Below, one piece after another: positions 19,683 to 31,700 of a stretch of 64,000 bases of DNA. The notes beneath the pieces were generated by a model that saw nothing but the letters and a program-made list of their open reading frames with translations, searched no databases and was not told the origin of the DNA. Every line of letters begins with the position of its first letter. The first letter of the stretch is position 1. A program made the position numbers and the translations under genes. This DNA comes from Gaertneriomyces semiglobifer (taxonomy: Eukaryota > Chytridiomycota > Chytridiomycetes > Spizellomycetales > Spizellomycetaceae). The stretch is from contig JAHLKF010000013.1 of assembly GCA_025558075.1 (NCBI GenBank), positions 248,001 to 312,000 on the forward strand. The letters are read 5' to 3'.

Positions 19683-19881
19683 GCTTGGTGAGCGCTTGAG
19701 CGGTGGAATTTTCTTTGAGCAGACCTTCGCTGCTCGCTTTCCAAAAAGTCTGGTAACTGGTGGTGATGTCGCTATTGGTCTTCAAATTTACGTTTCGGGA
19801 TAACATGCGCGCGTAAGGCCTGGTTGGACTTCCAAAAAAGTTGCTCGCACAACACTTGAGAGTTAACACATCACAATAGCA

Positions 19882-20640
19882 ATGTCTAGGTATTCCATAA
19901 CCACAGGGCTGCGACATCTTGGCAGAGATATGCGAATCTGTCGGATACCTGTTTATCTTCCGCGCAAAACCATCATCCGGCTACACTCGAGCACTGGAAG
20001 CCGAGCAGAACCGAATCGCAAATGCTGGCATTGCGGTGCGGAAGTTCCACGCAACTCTATATTCTGCCCAGCAGAACCAAAGCTAATCCAGCCGCCACCT
20101 GCCAACCAGTCATATTATGACATTCTGGTTCCAGATGTGTCACCTTCCGAGGTGCCGTTTGCCTACGACATTGATGAGAAGAAGATGAAAAGGAGATTTT
20201 TACAAGTGCAACGGGATGTACATCCAGATGGCTTCGGAAGGAAGAGCAAAACGGAGCAACAGTGTGCGGACCTACAATCATCTCTACTGAACAAGGCATT
20301 TCAGACTTTGCGAGATCCCCTGTCGCGAGCCAAGTATCTGCTGAGCCTGAATCACCTATCCCTTGCTGAACATGAAGGGTTATCCGACCCTCATCTTTTG
20401 ATGGAAGTAATGGAAATTAGGGAGGCACTGGAAGAGGCATCAAGTCAACACGAAGTAGACAACATCAAAACAGAAAACGATCAGCGTATTGCTGAGACCG
20501 TTCAACGACTGTCGGATGCATTCCGAAGCCATGATCTTGAGATAGCCAAGAAACTCACAGCGCAATTACAATACTGGATGAATATCAAGAACGTCATCCG
20601 AGATTGGGCACCGGGGAAGAGAATTGATCTGCAGCATTAG
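19882..20640 (+). CDS. JAC1: Mitochondrial Fe-S cluster co-chaperone HscB/Jac1
   Basis: J-protein that stimulates the mitochondrial Hsp70 during transfer of Fe-S clusters from the scaffold. Single exon, 252 aa. A basic presequence (about residues 1-40) precedes an N-terminal metal-site motif CWHCG. The J domain contains the HPD motif (DVHPDGF). The C-terminal three-helix scaffold-binding domain runs from EHEGLSDPHLLMEVMEIREA onward. In animal HSCB the N-terminal site is two CxxC pairs; here the second is FCPAE, so one cysteine is missing. The ATG at 19882 is first in frame. Confidence 0.95.
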   Translation: MSRYSITTGLRHLGRDMRICRIPVYLPRKTIIRLHSSTGSRAEPNRKCWHCGAEVPRNSIFCPAEPKLIQPPPANQSYYDILVPDVSPSEVPFAYDIDEKKMKRRFLQVQRDVHPDGFGRKSKTEQQCADLQSSLLNKAFQTLRDPLSRAKYLLSLNHLSLAEHEGLSDPHLLMEVMEIREALEEASSQHEVDNIKTENDQRIAETVQRLSDAFRSHDLEIAKKLTAQLQYWMNIKNVIRDWAPGKRIDLQH

Positions 20641-20949
20641 GGCTTTCCAGAACCACAGTGTATACTTAAATAGTTTTGTTCACTACAACATAGCACAGAC
20701 TAGGTACTAGCAACTCTATACATGTGTGCTCGCTGGCGACGTTAAATCACTACTATAAGGAGCATTGCTGCTGTAGTTCTTAGTCTCTTTATCGTAGCGT
20801 CAACATACCTGTTCTATTTGTTCTTTTGGACTGCCCGATGTATTCAAAAGCTTCAAATGTAGTCATCTTTGATCATTTCTGATCGCCGATGTGAGTACAG
20901 TGAGAAGCGTGATTTGTAAAGGACTACATCAATCCTTTTTACAAGAACC
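20641..20949. other. 3' flank shared by HscB and Fanzor (convergent)
   Basis: About 310 bp between two convergent stop codons. The half next to the Fanzor stop contains nested inverted repeats, described as a putative RNA. The half next to HscB shows no strong signal. The outer end of the Fanzor element must fall in this interval or overlap it, but no terminal repeat is obvious to me. Confidence 0.45.
20850..20949 (-). ncRNA. Putative Fanzor omega-RNA (guide scaffold)
   Basis: Directly 3' of the Fanzor stop, on the same strand, sit nested complementary segments. ATGTAGTC (20857-20864) pairs with GACTACAT (20922-20929). Inside them GATCA (20871-20875) and TGATC (20880-20884) form a hairpin with a 4-nt TTTC loop. 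AAAGGA (20918-20923) can alternatively pair with TCCTTT (20933-20938). In TnpB/Fanzor systems the guide scaffold is encoded at the 3' end of the nuclease gene and runs into the flank, so position and structure fit. The boundaries and the guide segment are inferred and cannot be fixed without other copies or RNA data. Confidence 0.5.
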
Positions 20950-22805
20950 TTATGCGTTGTCCCACACGTACTTTCCCACGCAGTTCTTCAGCGCATGATT
21001 CCTCGCACCATTCACGTCTCGATGAACCCTGTATCCGCATCTTTGGCACGAGTATTTCTTCTCGCCGCCCATCTGCCTCAGATGTCCACAAAACCCACAC
21101 GTCTTGGTGGTATAAGCTTCGTCATTCAACTCCACCACGAGGCCTTCAATGAGTTCTGCTTTCCCCTGCAGCGCAGCCTTGAATGCTGCGTGTCTCCAGG
21201 TCAGAAGGTCCCGTCGGGTGCGAGCACGGATCTTGCCTTTGCCTTTGCGGGTTTCGCCTTGCACAATGATGGTAGGCCTTTCTACCATGTTGGCGACCTC
21301 GAAGATGGATCCATGGATATACTGATAGTTGCTTGTGAGGTGGTGCACCACCTTATTGATGCATTCTTTTGTCCGGTTTCTCATTTGCTCGTGAATCCGC
21401 AGCCGGCGCAAGGAAAGACGGTTGCAAACAGAGGGCGGAATGTAAGGTGCATCGTTGCTTTTGTCATCGAGAAGGCTGCTTATTTGATTAAGTCGATCTT
21501 GGTATGGCCGAAACGTCTTTTGCAGATCATCATTCATACCAAACGAGCCCGCTACCATCGTGGTTGGAGAATAGTAGGTCATGTAGGGGTTGCTTCCGGG
21601 ATCGAGCGCAACGAGATGTCCCTGAGCTTGAGGACTGACTTCCTTTTTTTGAACATAAAGCGGGGCATGCATGAGAAAGCGCCCGGTCTTTGTCATCGTA
21701 ATCTTCACGGCACGAGGTGGCCCATCTGGGTATTTTTCAATGATGCGCCGCACATTTCTCTTGTGGAAACGCAGCCGTCCTTCATTTGGGAGACTTTCCG
21801 TATAGAAATTCCATCGCCGGCCAGCCCGTTTGCTGAAGTTTTGAGTGGGGATGGTGATGGCGGATGGCCTGGTGGCTTTAACGGAGCGGAATTTGATGTT
21901 GTCAAACACGTTCGTAGTACCATCAGTCAATCTCCGAAAAGCCGCACTGTACGCCATTGAGAGTTCCTTTGTCGCTTCCTCGCGTATAGAGTAAGGGGTG
22001 TCCTTCAACCACCTTAGCTTCTTGGGAAATCGATTCACCCCACAAGTGACGATTTGAGTCTTCAAGGCCATGCGATTGGATGGTGATATCAAACGCAACC
22101 CTCGTCGGAAATGTTTCTTCAAAACGCCCAGTGCCCAGTTGTAGGTATGCCGGGCGGCGGCAAACCATGTTTTGAGTATGGCTCGCTCTTTGAGTCTTCT
22201 TTGGTAGGGTAAAACCGCATGGTATACGTGCGTAACACATGGCCTGGGGGCACCTCCTTCTGGGATTTGAACATGACACCCTTCTTTGTCGCAGGCATCG
22301 CATCAGATGGTTCGTCTTCTTCGTTGTCGATAGACCGCTTTTTCTTCCTATTCTTCCTTCCAGAAGGTTTTCCAATATTCTCAGCAGGTTTGGAACCCGG
22401 GGTGGGAACGGGCGATACCCTTGTTAACCGATGTTGTTGACTGCCCGAAGCATAACCGTAACGGACATGGTGAAACCAGCTGTCCGTAGGTGAATCTTGG
22501 ACAATAAGTTGGCCGTGTAATGGGTTTGGAGGGCGCCACCAGCGAACATATTCTTCTTCAAGATGCTCCTGCCAGAAAGGAGGATCGTGTGTAGATGTCG
22601 GACGCGATGGGGGTGACTTGCTAGGTTTCGTGGTCCCTTTCTTCCGGGTAGATGTATGATTGTTCTTCCCATCCCCATCATTGGTCTTCTTGTAGGAGGG
22701 GCATTTCTTTGAAGTGCATGAGCCATGATATTCCACTTGACTGCGGCGACCTTCTTTTGTACAAACGGAACACCATCTCCTGGTGTCTTTTTCTTGTTCA
22801 CTCAT
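20950..22805 (-). CDS. Fz: Fanzor, RNA-guided RuvC endonuclease (TnpB family), frame interrupted near 22191
   Basis: Eukaryotic TnpB-like nuclease, strongly resembling the characterised Spizellomyces punctatus Fanzor (SpuFz1). The N-terminal part (22805 to about 22191) begins MSEQEKDTRRWCSVC, with Cys pairs, then a basic NLS (GRKNRKKKR) and the family start RTYTMRFYPTKED. The same protein continues in another frame (KERAILKTWFAAARHTYNWAL) to the stop at 20950. A one-base loss (or -1 shift) near 22191-22193 is needed to join them; the total would be about 618 aa. RuvC-I Asp is in ALDPGS (codon 21603-21601). RuvC-II candidates are the Glu in SIFEVANM (21300) and the Glu in NDEAYTTKTC (21120). 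The zinc ribbon is CGFC and CQRC, and the RuvC-III Asp is in HRDVNGA (21018). No splice sites explain the frame change. Confidence 0.95.
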
Positions 22806-24237
22806 GGATAGATGTTATCTATGTATAAGTATGTAAAAGTGGGACTGAAGTCATGGTAGATGTGAGGAGATTGGGGAAGGGGGGTTTACGAATGAGATGT
22901 GGGGGGTTTTGGAAAAGGAAAAGGGTGGGTGGAGGGATCTAGTGCCTGGGGTGGGTGGGTGTGTTGGTGGTGGTGGGAATAAATCCTGGAGGAGAGAGTT
23001 CCAGTGTCTGATGTTGTTGCGACTGCTGCTGCTGGTCCTGATCCAGTGTCTGGCCCGTCTGGTGAGGAGATAACAGGAGGGCATCCCCGAAAGCCCTCTC
23101 CTTTTATATTCACGAGACGAGGGGTGGCAAGTGAAGGCGGTGAGATGCATCTTGCCATCCTTTTTTGGATTTTCCATCTTGTCTGAGCACCGTATCCCAG
23201 ATGTTGGTAATGGACAGATCATCTGGTAAAAGTTTGTTTATTTGATGGGGATCCGATCCTGCATTTCACTAGACTTGCCACCGGGATGTATCAGTGCATA
23301 TAGTCGCTGTATGTAGATGCAGGATGCCAAACAAAAGAGCAAAGAGGCAACGATTTCCACGCGTAGCGGAGCTTATGTCAGCTACCGACGGTCTTATTGT
23401 GGCTCAGTCACGACACAACTAATAGTCAAGACTGATCGCAAACATAATCTCAATGCGCCACGCTGCGCCACCGTTTTTTCCGCAGAAGTATAAAAGCCTT
23501 GGGGATCCCACGGCCCTCAGACGAACGCGAAGAGTGGGAGTTATCCCAGCCGGCGGTATCTCCGGCCTTCTCTGTGTTGCTTTCATGTGACCGATGGGGA
23601 GGTCGGTCGAATGTTCCGCTACATCTGTTTCTACCTCTGCGTACGCATTAGTGTCGAGAGATAGAGAAGTAAAACAGTTCTTCCTGTAGAGACACACGCT
23701 GTATTCACACAATGCATAATAACGATTTAAAAAGTTTGTCTACCGCCCTGAGGGACGACGGCAGTCACCGCTTATTACGGTCGCTTTGACCGGGAAAATG
23801 TGTACAAGAAAAATAACACTGTATACTACAAAGGTCGCTAATAATGGCTTTACGCAGTCCCGATGTTTTCACGCGTATTCCGTTTCCGCGAAAGATGTGG
23901 CAGCGACGATATGATGATGATGATGATACACACTCCAAAAAAGCATAATCCTGCCTTGGTTTGGTGGCTCCTTCTAGTCATGGTTCGGTGCACATAGCGT
24001 CACGTTTAAGTGGACGAGGGCAATGAATGAGGGCATCAAGCAACCCACCCGAGATCCCCGCGAGAACAACGAATAGAGTCATTCAACGTCAATCCTAAAA
24101 GAGAGCCCAGGTGCAACACCTCCACCACCACCGAAACCAGCTCAATACCCAGTTAAAAAAGCAAGCACGTCAACGACCACCAAAGCAAAAAAGAACTCTA
24201 ACACACCTACTCCAGAACAAACCTCTCATCTCACACC
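22806..24237. other. Gene-poor region upstream of Fanzor
   Basis: About 1.4 kb without a convincing gene. Near 22858-22975 is a G-rich plus-strand tract (pyrimidine-rich on the Fanzor sense strand). At 23910-23927 there is a short ATG/GAT microsatellite. A minus-strand frame at 23419-23712 (97 aa) has no recognisable domain. The last 130 bp before 24238 are CA-rich and read as the leader of the next small gene. Confidence 0.45.
22858..22975 (+). other. G-rich tract with clustered G-runs
   Basis: Runs of 3-6 G recur (for example GGGTGGGTGGAGGG and GGGGTGGGTGGGTG), some spaced closely enough to allow quadruplex-like folding on the plus strand. The tract lies about 50-170 bp upstream of the Fanzor start and is a C/T-rich promoter or leader on the sense strand. 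Confidence 0.5.
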
Positions 24238-28720: not shown

Positions 28721-31700
28721 TTAGGTTGTGGAGATTCCCAATTGCGGTTGCGTTCGGTAATTGAGCTCATCCTGTTCAGTCACGGAGTCATGGGAGAGGG
28801 TCGGATGAAGTGGCAGCTCCTGTGTATGATGATGTTGGTGCGAATCCTGTTCCCCGGACAACTGATGTGAGGACCTGTCATCGGGCGTAGGAGCAGTCCC
28901 CAGCGTTGATGCCAACATCTGATCTCGCTGCATTTCACGTGGGTCCACCTCCATCTCCTCCATCACTGGCTGTGCTTGCCTTATTGCCTCAGGTCGCATC
29001 TCCCCAAGATTCAAGTCGGCCTCTTGTTGCCCGTGGTCTACCGAAGATGGCTCCTGCTGATCGGCTCCAGCAGCTGCAGCAGCTGCTACCGCAGCGGCTT
29101 GCATACCCATAACCTGTGTTAGCAACAATCCCCATCTTCCCAGATAGGCCTTTCGTCGTTCCACGCCGTCTCTTCCTTTCATGTTCTCCAGCTCCGTTAT
29201 TCTACCTTCTACTAGAGCGCGATCTTCCTCTGGGGTCCATACAAACGCATGCAAATCCGTGGGGGCGTCGATAGACAAGTTTTGCGACAAGAACTTCCGG
29301 AGAGTCGTCAAAGACCCGGAAGACATGTGCAAGGCTGTGAAGAGAGTTTGGCGCGGCACATGGGAGTATTGGTCGGAGAGTTGGTGAAGATGGTGCAGAT
29401 AGCTCTGTTTTAGCGCGAGGATTGGGTTCATGAGCGGAGGGTTGGGCGAGTCGAGTAGCGGATTCACGTTCAAGTTGATGTTCAAATCTGCAGGGTTAGG
29501 CGGTGGTTTGATATCTGCAGAGGATGTTGATAGGCGAAGTGCTTCCATATCCGGTGCTGAGCGGGGAGGAAGCGCGGTAGTATCAGCTATTTGAGGGAGA
29601 TTAGCAGGAAGGGATTGTTGCCATAGATCCCCTGCCATGGCTGATTGGGGCGATATAAAGAACGCCTGAGGTTGCGGTAACTGCTCTGATGGGTGTTGTG
29701 GCTGTTCCGACACAGTATCAACTCCGTCCATCTGCATCGACTCTTGGGTATCTCCAGTCTGTCCCTGCACTTGGGATTGTGCCTGAGCCTGAGCCTGCGC
29801 TTGAACTTGAACTTGAGCTTGCATTTGAGCGGCTACCTGCTGATCCCAGCTCATCTTGATCTTTTTTGCGAGTTCCACAATATGATACGACTGTTCCATG
29901 ACTTTGAACATATTCTTGTTAAAGTGGTTTCGCCAGCTCTCACCACTATGCTGTGGATGTCTCGAGGCGAAATCCCGCCAAAATGGAGCACTTTTGATTC
30001 CAACTTGGCCCAAAAGTGGCCGCATCTCACTACGCATCAGCATTTTGTCGCGATCGGTAAATTCACCTCGTTTCGTGTGTGCCTTTCGCTTCATAGCAGC
30101 CTCAGCCTCCTCAGGTGTTTCGGAATGGGCGGCCAACACCCGTTCTTGTGCTAACGTACGCGCACCCTCACGAGCAAAGTACATTTTGTAATCATCTTGA
30201 TGGTGGGTCGGGAAATATGCTGCCATCGCGTCGTAAGCCGCTTCCTGATGATCGTCCGGACATATACGCATGACATCAAGTAGAACAGCTGCTTCATGTG
30301 GCGTAAAAAATATGTTGCGTCCTCTACTGGGGTTTTCTGATTTGATCCTTTGACTGTCATTAGCGCCTGTGTCGTTTGCGCCATCTGACCTCATTTCCTC
30401 TTTGATCAAGCTGGCCCGAAATTCGGGACTCAACGATGGTAAGATATGCTTTATGGCGCGGTCCCGCCACGACTGCCACGAGTGCCTCGGATACTTAGTT
30501 TGAAGATCCTCCCAGAGCCTTGTACCCACAATACCCTTTTTTAACGCGTTCATTTCAAGTTCTTGGCGAATTATCATGTCGTCTTGTGCGGTAAACGGTT
30601 CGCGAGGTATACTCTCCTTCTCACTCAATTCCTGTTGCTCTTGCTGCTGGGGTAGCACTGGCAGCTCATATGGTTGGATTTCGACAAGTCGACCATTCCT
30701 CACGCACTCCAAAACAAAATCAGTCGAGTATATTCCGGGCCCTGTTGCCGCATGCGAAGGCGGCGCGAGACGGATGAGTGGTCCTACATAGAGGGGGCCC
30801 ACAATTTCCCCGCCGTGTGCTTGTAATAAATGGCCTACTTGAACAGCAGATGGATCCGAAAAGGTCAAAAGAAAGCGAATGGGCTGTCCTTGCGCGTCAA
30901 TAAATAAAGGAGGAAGGTTTAGGCCTTGCAGATTTCGGATGAATGCGCCAATCTGAGAGCCGATGATATCTGTTGTGTTTGTGGCAAGCAATTGCTGAGA
31001 GGAATGCTGGTCATGATTTTCTTCCTGCTGGACAAGTTCTTGACGATGAAAGTCTTGGTGATTTTTTGGCGAATGGTGGGGATCGGGTTCGGGTCCGTCC
31101 GCGACTTCCATTTGACCAGGTGTTTGCTGTTGCGTTAGCAGTCCCTGCTCGTGCAACCGCTGATGCTGGTATTGTGGGTGCTGTTGAATGACCGCAACAG
31201 CATGGGCAGCCGCGGCGACAGCAGCAGCCGCAGCAGCTTGAAAGGCCAGTTCTCCCGTCCCACTAGCTTGCTCGACTTGATGTTCGTCATGTTCAACCGT
31301 TAGATTCCCGTGTTCGAGACCCTCTCGGTGTTCCTCATTTGCGTGGGTAAGGGTCATGCTTATGGTCGATGTGGCTGTCGTGACATTTCTTGTCGTCGGC
31401 CTTCCAGACGCGAAGCCTTCTTGCCTGTCCACCACCGTACTGCTAGCACTTGAACCGCTCGGCGATCGATGATCGGTGGGGTCTTTCACGTTGATCCCGC
31501 CTGGAATTGGAGTATAACAAATGTTATATGATATGGATATCCAGAACGGTTACTCCAGCTGTCTTTTTTGCCTGCAAAGTTCAATTTACTGCGCGTGGGA
31601 AGCATCCCTTTGGATTTTCCTACTGCAATGACAGACACTGTAAAACTCTGAGACTCGTAGCCTACTAAGTTCAAATCATTTGAACATTCTACTGGCATTT

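Follow-up and report, generated by a model that had tools for sequence, protein, structure and literature searches.

Fanzors are eukaryotic cousins of the CRISPR nucleases. A nuclease of the TnpB/Fanzor type is encoded on the minus strand at positions 20950-22805 of the window (the whole 64,000-nucleotide stretch analysed here, positions 248001-312000 of contig 13) in Gaertneriomyces semiglobifer, a chytrid fungus of soil that belongs to the Spizellomycetales, the same order as the host of SpuFz1, Spizellomyces punctatus, but to a different genus. The assembly of G. semiglobifer, 20.86 Mb in 66 contigs, was the genome searched throughout. The nuclease is split between two overlapping frames, A and B, and 3' of its stop codon, just outside that interval, lies a 103-nt element that recurs at two other loci. 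Very probably this locus is one copy, now degraded, of an old Fanzor element of chytrids, with a 3' omega-RNA scaffold and a guide flank (Table 1), the predicted omega-RNA being the main addition to the initial annotation of this DNA.

The nuclease and its reading frames

Frame A supplies the N-terminal part, which matched the family profile with E 8e-12 when the frame fragments taken from the window and from the retrieved loci were searched together; frame B supplies the remainder, with a mean predicted local distance difference test score (pLDDT) of 89.3 in its AlphaFold model and matches to Pfam PF07282 (E=1e-14) and to the NCBIfam guided_TnpB model (E=9.7e-27; 94.2 bits, below the cut-off of 100). 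As the initial annotation had proposed, the RuvC-I and RuvC-III aspartates (D234 and D429), two glutamates that are candidates for RuvC-II (E335 in the canonical position and E395 in the alternative one, Ealt) and the cysteines of a C4 zinc ribbon (C402, C405, C419 and C422) are in place, and basic stretches resembling a nuclear localisation signal (NLS) are present in frame A. The RuvC-I motif D234-P235-G236 and E395 are kept in all 19 rows of an alignment of the window with 18 of 77 database matches, hand-picked mostly by length, and a glutamate aligned with E335 is found in 14 of them; in an alignment widened to 55 rows, some of them truncated, D234, P235, G236 and E395 are conserved at 90% or more, and the zinc cysteines and D429 are not among the positions conserved to that degree. 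The hallmarks of Fanzors are defined as the DPG motif and an alternative RuvC-II glutamate a few residues ahead of the zinc finger (PMC10711439), and the locus has both, together with a C4 ribbon followed by the RuvC-III RD and a eukaryotic setting, namely the contigs of G. semiglobifer and neighbouring genes of eukaryotic type; both parts of the earlier identification, a Fanzor and a chytrid genome, were right. The compact zinc ribbon and TnpB-like fold of canonical Fanzor2 are present as well. The N-terminal helix-turn-helix (HTH) PF12323, which according to Bao and Jurka occurs in some TnpB and Fanzor2 proteins and was not determinable in Fanzor1 (PMC3627910), scores below the cut-off in the window (E 0.0076), where the frame break cuts through it, and above the cut-off in the relatives P0002, P0003 and P0016. 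The cysteine-rich N-terminal extension is of uncertain coding status, its codon-usage score being indecisive (0.001 in frame versus 0.010 in another frame), and its identification as a known zinc finger was rejected, Pfam giving no match above the cut-off.

The single joined protein of the initial annotation cannot be read from this DNA. In frame A (22805-22119) the conserved MRFYPTKE ends at 22197, in frame B (22302-20950) RAILKTWF starts at 22185, and the two frames are a net 8 nt out of register with respect to a second copy on contig 10 and to the relatives P0001-P0004. The contig-10 copy aligns across this place with an 8-nt gap, seven residues separate YP from LxxWF in P0001-P0004, and P0001 passes the region in a single frame. 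An intron joining the frames was rejected, the best of 67 frame-restoring GT/GC-AG candidates of at least 30 nt still deleting 31 conserved nt, and a programmed frameshift is, we infer, unlikely because P0001-P0004 have no such offset.

The predicted omega-RNA

The 103-nt element has three carriers: the window, the decayed Fanzor on contig 10, and a Fanzor-less "ghost" site on contig 8. In a downstream stretch of 102 bp the window and contig 10 share 80% identity, versus 72% in the main coding block, and a DNA search with the downstream stretch retrieved the contig-8 copy (78% over 115 bp, E 4.9e-17); this search missed contig 10, hence its list is incomplete. No Fanzor was detected in the 6.5 kb around the ghost, either by tblastn with four relatives (best E 0.51) or with the profile at E 0.01. 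The three copies share this element, align over it from end to end, and diverge sharply after AATACATCG. RNAalifold folds them into five helices with 26 pairs, of which four have compensatory double changes, and changes on both sides that preserve pairing occur in three of the five helices. On this fold 96.2% of the cells are able to pair, versus 32-39% when the partners are slid by 1-3 columns, and the observed pairing is matched by 10 of 500 column shuffles.

The layout is stem-loop 1, a longer hairpin and a 3' tail, followed by flank without conservation. In Fanzor1 omega-RNAs stem-loop 1 has seven pairs (PMC11423790), and the SpuFz1 guide of about 15 nt (PMC10432273) is the basis for the guide length predicted here. 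Because the layout resembles that of Fanzor1 omega-RNAs and the contig-8 copy has its parallel in the ghost loci of S. punctatus, which likewise lack a Fanzor (PMC10432273), the sequence from 20938 to 20836 is probably an omega-RNA scaffold with its guide running from 20835 downward, and as such may have been transcribed, bound and used for guiding.

Two patterns derived from the three copies, one for the 3' half and one for stem-loop 1, recovered the three loci with no control hits and gave no fourth exact match genome-wide. The pattern CAATACATCG occurs 35 times, versus 17 for its reversed control; apart from the contig-8 and contig-10 copies there are 33 such sites, of which a single one scored (14.6 bits), the remaining 32 being without a match up to E 10. 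A second AATACATCG stands behind a weakly scoring scaffold-like sequence on contig 8 (L020:4951-5035, minus strand), about 1.75 kb upstream of the ghost and on the same strand; its 20.8 bits correspond to E 0.0057, which covers 15.6 kb only, and the site is therefore not significant genome-wide. The first 15 nt of the predicted guide in the window match exactly at C8:798140, and the contig-8 guide has no second genomic match; no target is claimed, because about 0.04 such exact matches are expected and the reversed-pattern control gave five matches at up to two mismatches.

Table 1. Features of the Fanzor locus (window coordinates)
Feature	Position	Strand	Description	Basis
N-terminal extension	22590..22805	-	72 residues, cysteine-rich; precedes the start seen in relatives	
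Frame A open reading frame (ORF)	22119..22805	-	ATG at 22805; N-terminal Fanzor part	ORF list, profile match
Basic NLS-like stretches	22617-22646, 22332-22361	-	frame A	
HDPPFW	22572-22589	-	frame A; region common to P0001, P0008, P0016	
MRFYPTKE	22197-22220	-	frame A; conserved piece	
Frame break	22185..22197	-	between MRFYPTKE and RAILKTWF	net +8 nt relative to contig-10 copy
Frame B ORF	20950..22302	-	450 aa; rest of WED/REC, RuvC, zinc-ribbon core	
D234	21601..21603	-	RuvC-I aspartate (DPG)	alignment
E335	21298..21300	-	RuvC-II glutamate, canonical position	alignment
E395 (Ealt)	21118..21120	-	alternative RuvC-II glutamate, Fanzor hallmark	alignment
C402-C405-C419-C422	21037..21099	-	C4 zinc ribbon	alignment
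D429	21016..21018	-	RuvC-III aspartate (RDVNGARN)	alignment
Predicted omega-RNA scaffold	20836..20938	-	103 nt, five helices; also right end of element	three-copy alignment, folds
Predicted guide	20821..20835	-	about 15 nt of flank past the sharp 3' boundary	length by analogy with SpuFz1

Copies, ends and rival explanations

Searched with the core protein, the genome gave eight matches: besides the window itself, contig 10 accounts for four pieces, contig 25 for two and contig 7 for one. The contig-10 copy is fragmented, its pieces holding stops and frame shifts. PF07282 matched six places, four of them above the cut-off (the window, C7:267532, contig 10 and C7:544316). Neither search found an intact Fanzor; the copies detected outside the window are old or decayed. 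Comparison of the window copy with that on contig 10 shows changes at 55 of 319 first, 35 of 319 second and 143 of 317 third codon positions, a concentration at the third position which indicates purifying selection on the protein during much of the time since the two copies separated. At C7:544316-544453 lies a C-terminal relic (...NTSKVCHRC...RDYNASKNIL; 30 bits with PF07282) that looks unlike the window's clade and may be of the Fanzor1 type; both Fanzor kinds may therefore once have existed in this genome. A 164-aa open frame with a Fanzor zinc ribbon at C7:267520-267696 (L011:4317-4808, minus strand) has A at or near the position of the alternative glutamate (LPSAVYTSKTC) and WD in place of RD, and appears to be a fragment, dead or reused.

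No inverted or direct terminal repeat of the right end clearly beat shuffles on contigs 13, 8 and 10: the inverted match was reached by 84 and 96 of 200 shuffles on contig 13 (two ranges), 159 of 200 on contig 8 and 27 of 200 on contig 10. The IS607-type resolvase domain PF00239 had no match at E 0.001 in a six-frame, intron-blind search of the genome; the same search gave matches in 10 of 14 control genomes. Because no such resolvase was found, the window Fanzor, judged from its genome sequence, is not a canonical IS607 Fanzor2. The absence of a transposase beside the gene, claimed initially, holds among the neighbouring ORFs scanned: there was none in eight chosen ORFs between 12 and 31.5 kb (seven with non-transposase matches and one without a match) or in the HscB-like ORF at 19867-20637, and none of ten more ORFs at 20.0-25.6 kb had any match up to E 0.1.

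A degraded Fanzor element with a predicted omega-RNA is the explanation preferred here, on the strength of the homology, the catalytic residues, the frame break, the conserved 3' RNA with its pair-preserving changes and the ghost copy, from which transcription, RNA binding, guiding, cleavage and a role in the persistence of the element may be inferred. The intact element would have encoded an RNA-guided DNA nuclease; a transcript extending past the stop codon would have borne the structured scaffold ending in AATACATCG, with the flank right after it as the guide; and the protein would have bound the scaffold RNA and cut matching double-stranded DNA by means of the DPG aspartate, the alternative RuvC-II glutamate and the RuvC-III aspartate, cleavage presumably aiding the persistence of the element at its site. 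The family seems to be dying in this genome, where the best copy, in the window, is frame-broken, another is fragmented, and for one scaffold no nuclease gene was found nearby.

Several results weigh against this explanation. Of 500 column shuffles, 25 match the four double-changed pairs, 25 the covariation score and 198 the number of pair types; the covariation is modest because only three RNA copies are available. Helix 1 has three disrupted outer pairs in the contig-10 copy, the fold stands clear of its own shuffles in the window only (z -2.58, versus -0.20 and -0.52 in the other copies), and an Rfam search of the RNA element gave no match. Neither a left end nor an inverted repeat that would fix the extent of the element and its target-adjacent motif (TAM) was found near the copies, and the frame break may stem from misassembly. 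The 103-nt element might be just a transposon right end that binds a recombinase, or a 3' untranslated region, and no guide RNA, as its place at the right edge of the Fanzor element and the small covariation set, drawn from this genome, would allow; this is unlikely given the changes on both sides of three helices, the copy that occurs without the gene, and a position 3' of the stop and an order that resemble Fanzor1 omega-RNAs (PMC11423790, PMC10432273). Were the frame break an assembly or sequencing error, or bypassed, the single near-complete copy might be a living host gene, kept as a domesticated RNA-guided nuclease, and its intact catalytic residues, its 450-aa core open from end to end and the excess of third-position changes would fit; but the sister copies found are decayed, the selection signal may be older than the break, and no enumerated intron removes the net 8-nt break without loss of conserved sequence, all of which make a functioning host gene improbable.

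Two other features of the window concern its neighbourhood. A 942-aa ORF (28724-31549, minus strand) matches the Rap1 Myb, Rap1 DNA-binding, Rap1 C-terminal and BRCT domains, and probably encodes a chytrid homologue of Rap1, a telomere protein. A repeat at 23442-23671, which lies upstream of the Fanzor at a distance of about 640 bp from its start, recurs at C14:250931-251230 in two blocks of 95% and 88% identity; on contig 14 the blocks are separated by 71 bp. The repeat has a TATA-like box on the plus strand and resembles a long terminal repeat. It was considered as the left end of the element and is treated as a separate repeat because the 8 kb around the contig-14 copy gave no Fanzor or RNA-model match.

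Relationship to known Fanzors

Three trees, built from 86, 75 and 85 hand-picked rows, all place the window within a 13-row clade, supported by a Shimodaira-Hasegawa-like approximate likelihood-ratio test (SH-aLRT) value of 100 in the first, bootstrap/SH-aLRT of 100/100 in the second and SH-aLRT of 100 in the third. Its stem is long (1.76 and 1.4 changes per column in the 86- and 85-row trees), and neither the viral and bacterial rows, most of the latter cyanobacterial, nor the Lipomyces clade group with it. The 86-row tree sampled 19 of 27 viral and 23 of 80 bacterial loci, and 11 of its rows were dropped before the other two for long branches, composition or gaps; all the trees lack a Fanzor1 row as an anchor, and the deep order, where the 13-row clade forks with bacterial, viral and Lipomyces-containing clades, is not settled by them. 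The three clade members of known source, the window and two Borealophlyctis proteins, are all chytrids. A 116-kb viral contig (IMGVR_UViG_3300022188_000226; L050, L053) has a TnpB/Fanzor-like gene and, at a distance of about 23 kb from it, a second match that is weaker.

The initial annotation had placed this locus in the group of SpuFz1, as that gene or a sister copy. The shared order of fungi, an active site of Fanzor type and a Fanzor1-like order of RNA stem-loops speak for such an identity, which is nevertheless very improbable. The genus differs, no inverted repeats were found, relatives possess the PF12323 HTH known in some TnpB and Fanzor2 proteins (PMC3627910), and the D-E-D spacing is 161/34 in the window versus 158/65 for the SpuFz1 metal ligands D383, N385, E541 and D606 as given in PMC10432273, a comparison made by spacing. 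The E-D spacing taken by pattern is 33-37 in 13 of 14 relatives and has no value in the other, and the Lipomyces proteins P0171 and P0179 have spacings of 143 and 34. No row named SpuFz1, S. punctatus, GtFz1 or PpFz1 appeared in the searches, in which most rows are nameless and one covered the best 120 of 561; the absence of SpuFz1, GtFz1 and PpFz1 from the best 50 structure matches listed is uninformative. Taken together, the sequences place the window Fanzor in an old lineage of Fanzor2-type architecture and a little-described branch.

The characterised fungal Fanzors SpuFz1 and PpFz1 are described as both Fanzor1. The present locus points to a second, distinct lineage in the order of SpuFz1. 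Its architecture is compact and TnpB-like, its predicted guide-RNA scaffold is supported by changes that keep the pairing and by a copy that has no nuclease, and an IS607 recombinase is not detectable. The locus has a bearing on the way in which Fanzors departed from IS607 elements, and offers full-length relatives (P0001, P0008 and P0009) together with a concrete scaffold model to look for. A more speculative possibility, which we regard as doubtful, is that the 13-row clade is a third eukaryotic branch that arose from IS607-type TnpBs independently of the yeast and viral Fanzor2s and of Fanzor1, lost the serine recombinase, and, equipped with a 103-nt scaffold of its own, dispersed among chytrids, the contig-8 scaffold being a trans-acting guide locus that has outlived its nuclease.

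The nearest named relatives, Borealophlyctis nickersoniae HK104_005794 and HK104_003512 (both partial entries) and Phlyctochytrium arcticum DFS34DRAFT_502721, and also P0001, are 54-67% identical to the window protein over the aligned part; the Borealophlyctis proteins and P0001 lie within its 13-row clade, and none of the four has a named function or a Fanzor label. No text linking Fanzor with Borealophlyctis, Gaertneriomyces, Phlyctochytrium or Fimicolochytrium was found in the literature searched, though supplementary tables, which lie outside such a search, may list these proteins. With SpuFz1 and its element SPu-1, which are Fanzor1, the window shares ghost loci that lack a Fanzor and, at the end of the element, a structured 3' RNA (PMC10432273), but the scaffold is 103 nt here versus 75 nt reported for SpuFz1, and SPu-1 is described as having 30-33-bp inverted repeats and many copies (PMC10432273, PMC3627910), neither of which was found for the window element. 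From Fanzor2, represented by that of Acanthamoeba polyphaga mimivirus (PDB 9b0l) and by the Lipomyces TnpB-like proteins, which are taken as Fanzor2 by analogy with those of other yeasts (PMC3627910, Table 1), it differs by its own long-stemmed clade apart from Lipomyces; canonical Fanzor2 travels with an IS607 serine recombinase, whereas none was found in this genome. Fanzor2*, carried by non-IS607 transposons in Chloropicon primus and molluscs, is likewise a Fanzor2-like protein with no IS607 recombinase detected, but is described with inverted repeats and target-site duplications (PMC10711439), whereas no left end was found here. The cyanobacterial pro-Fanzor-like TnpBs and ISDra2 TnpB are bacterial and fall in clades separate from that of the window; ISDra2 TnpB has DVG and no glutamate at the alternative site, whereas the window has DPG and E395.
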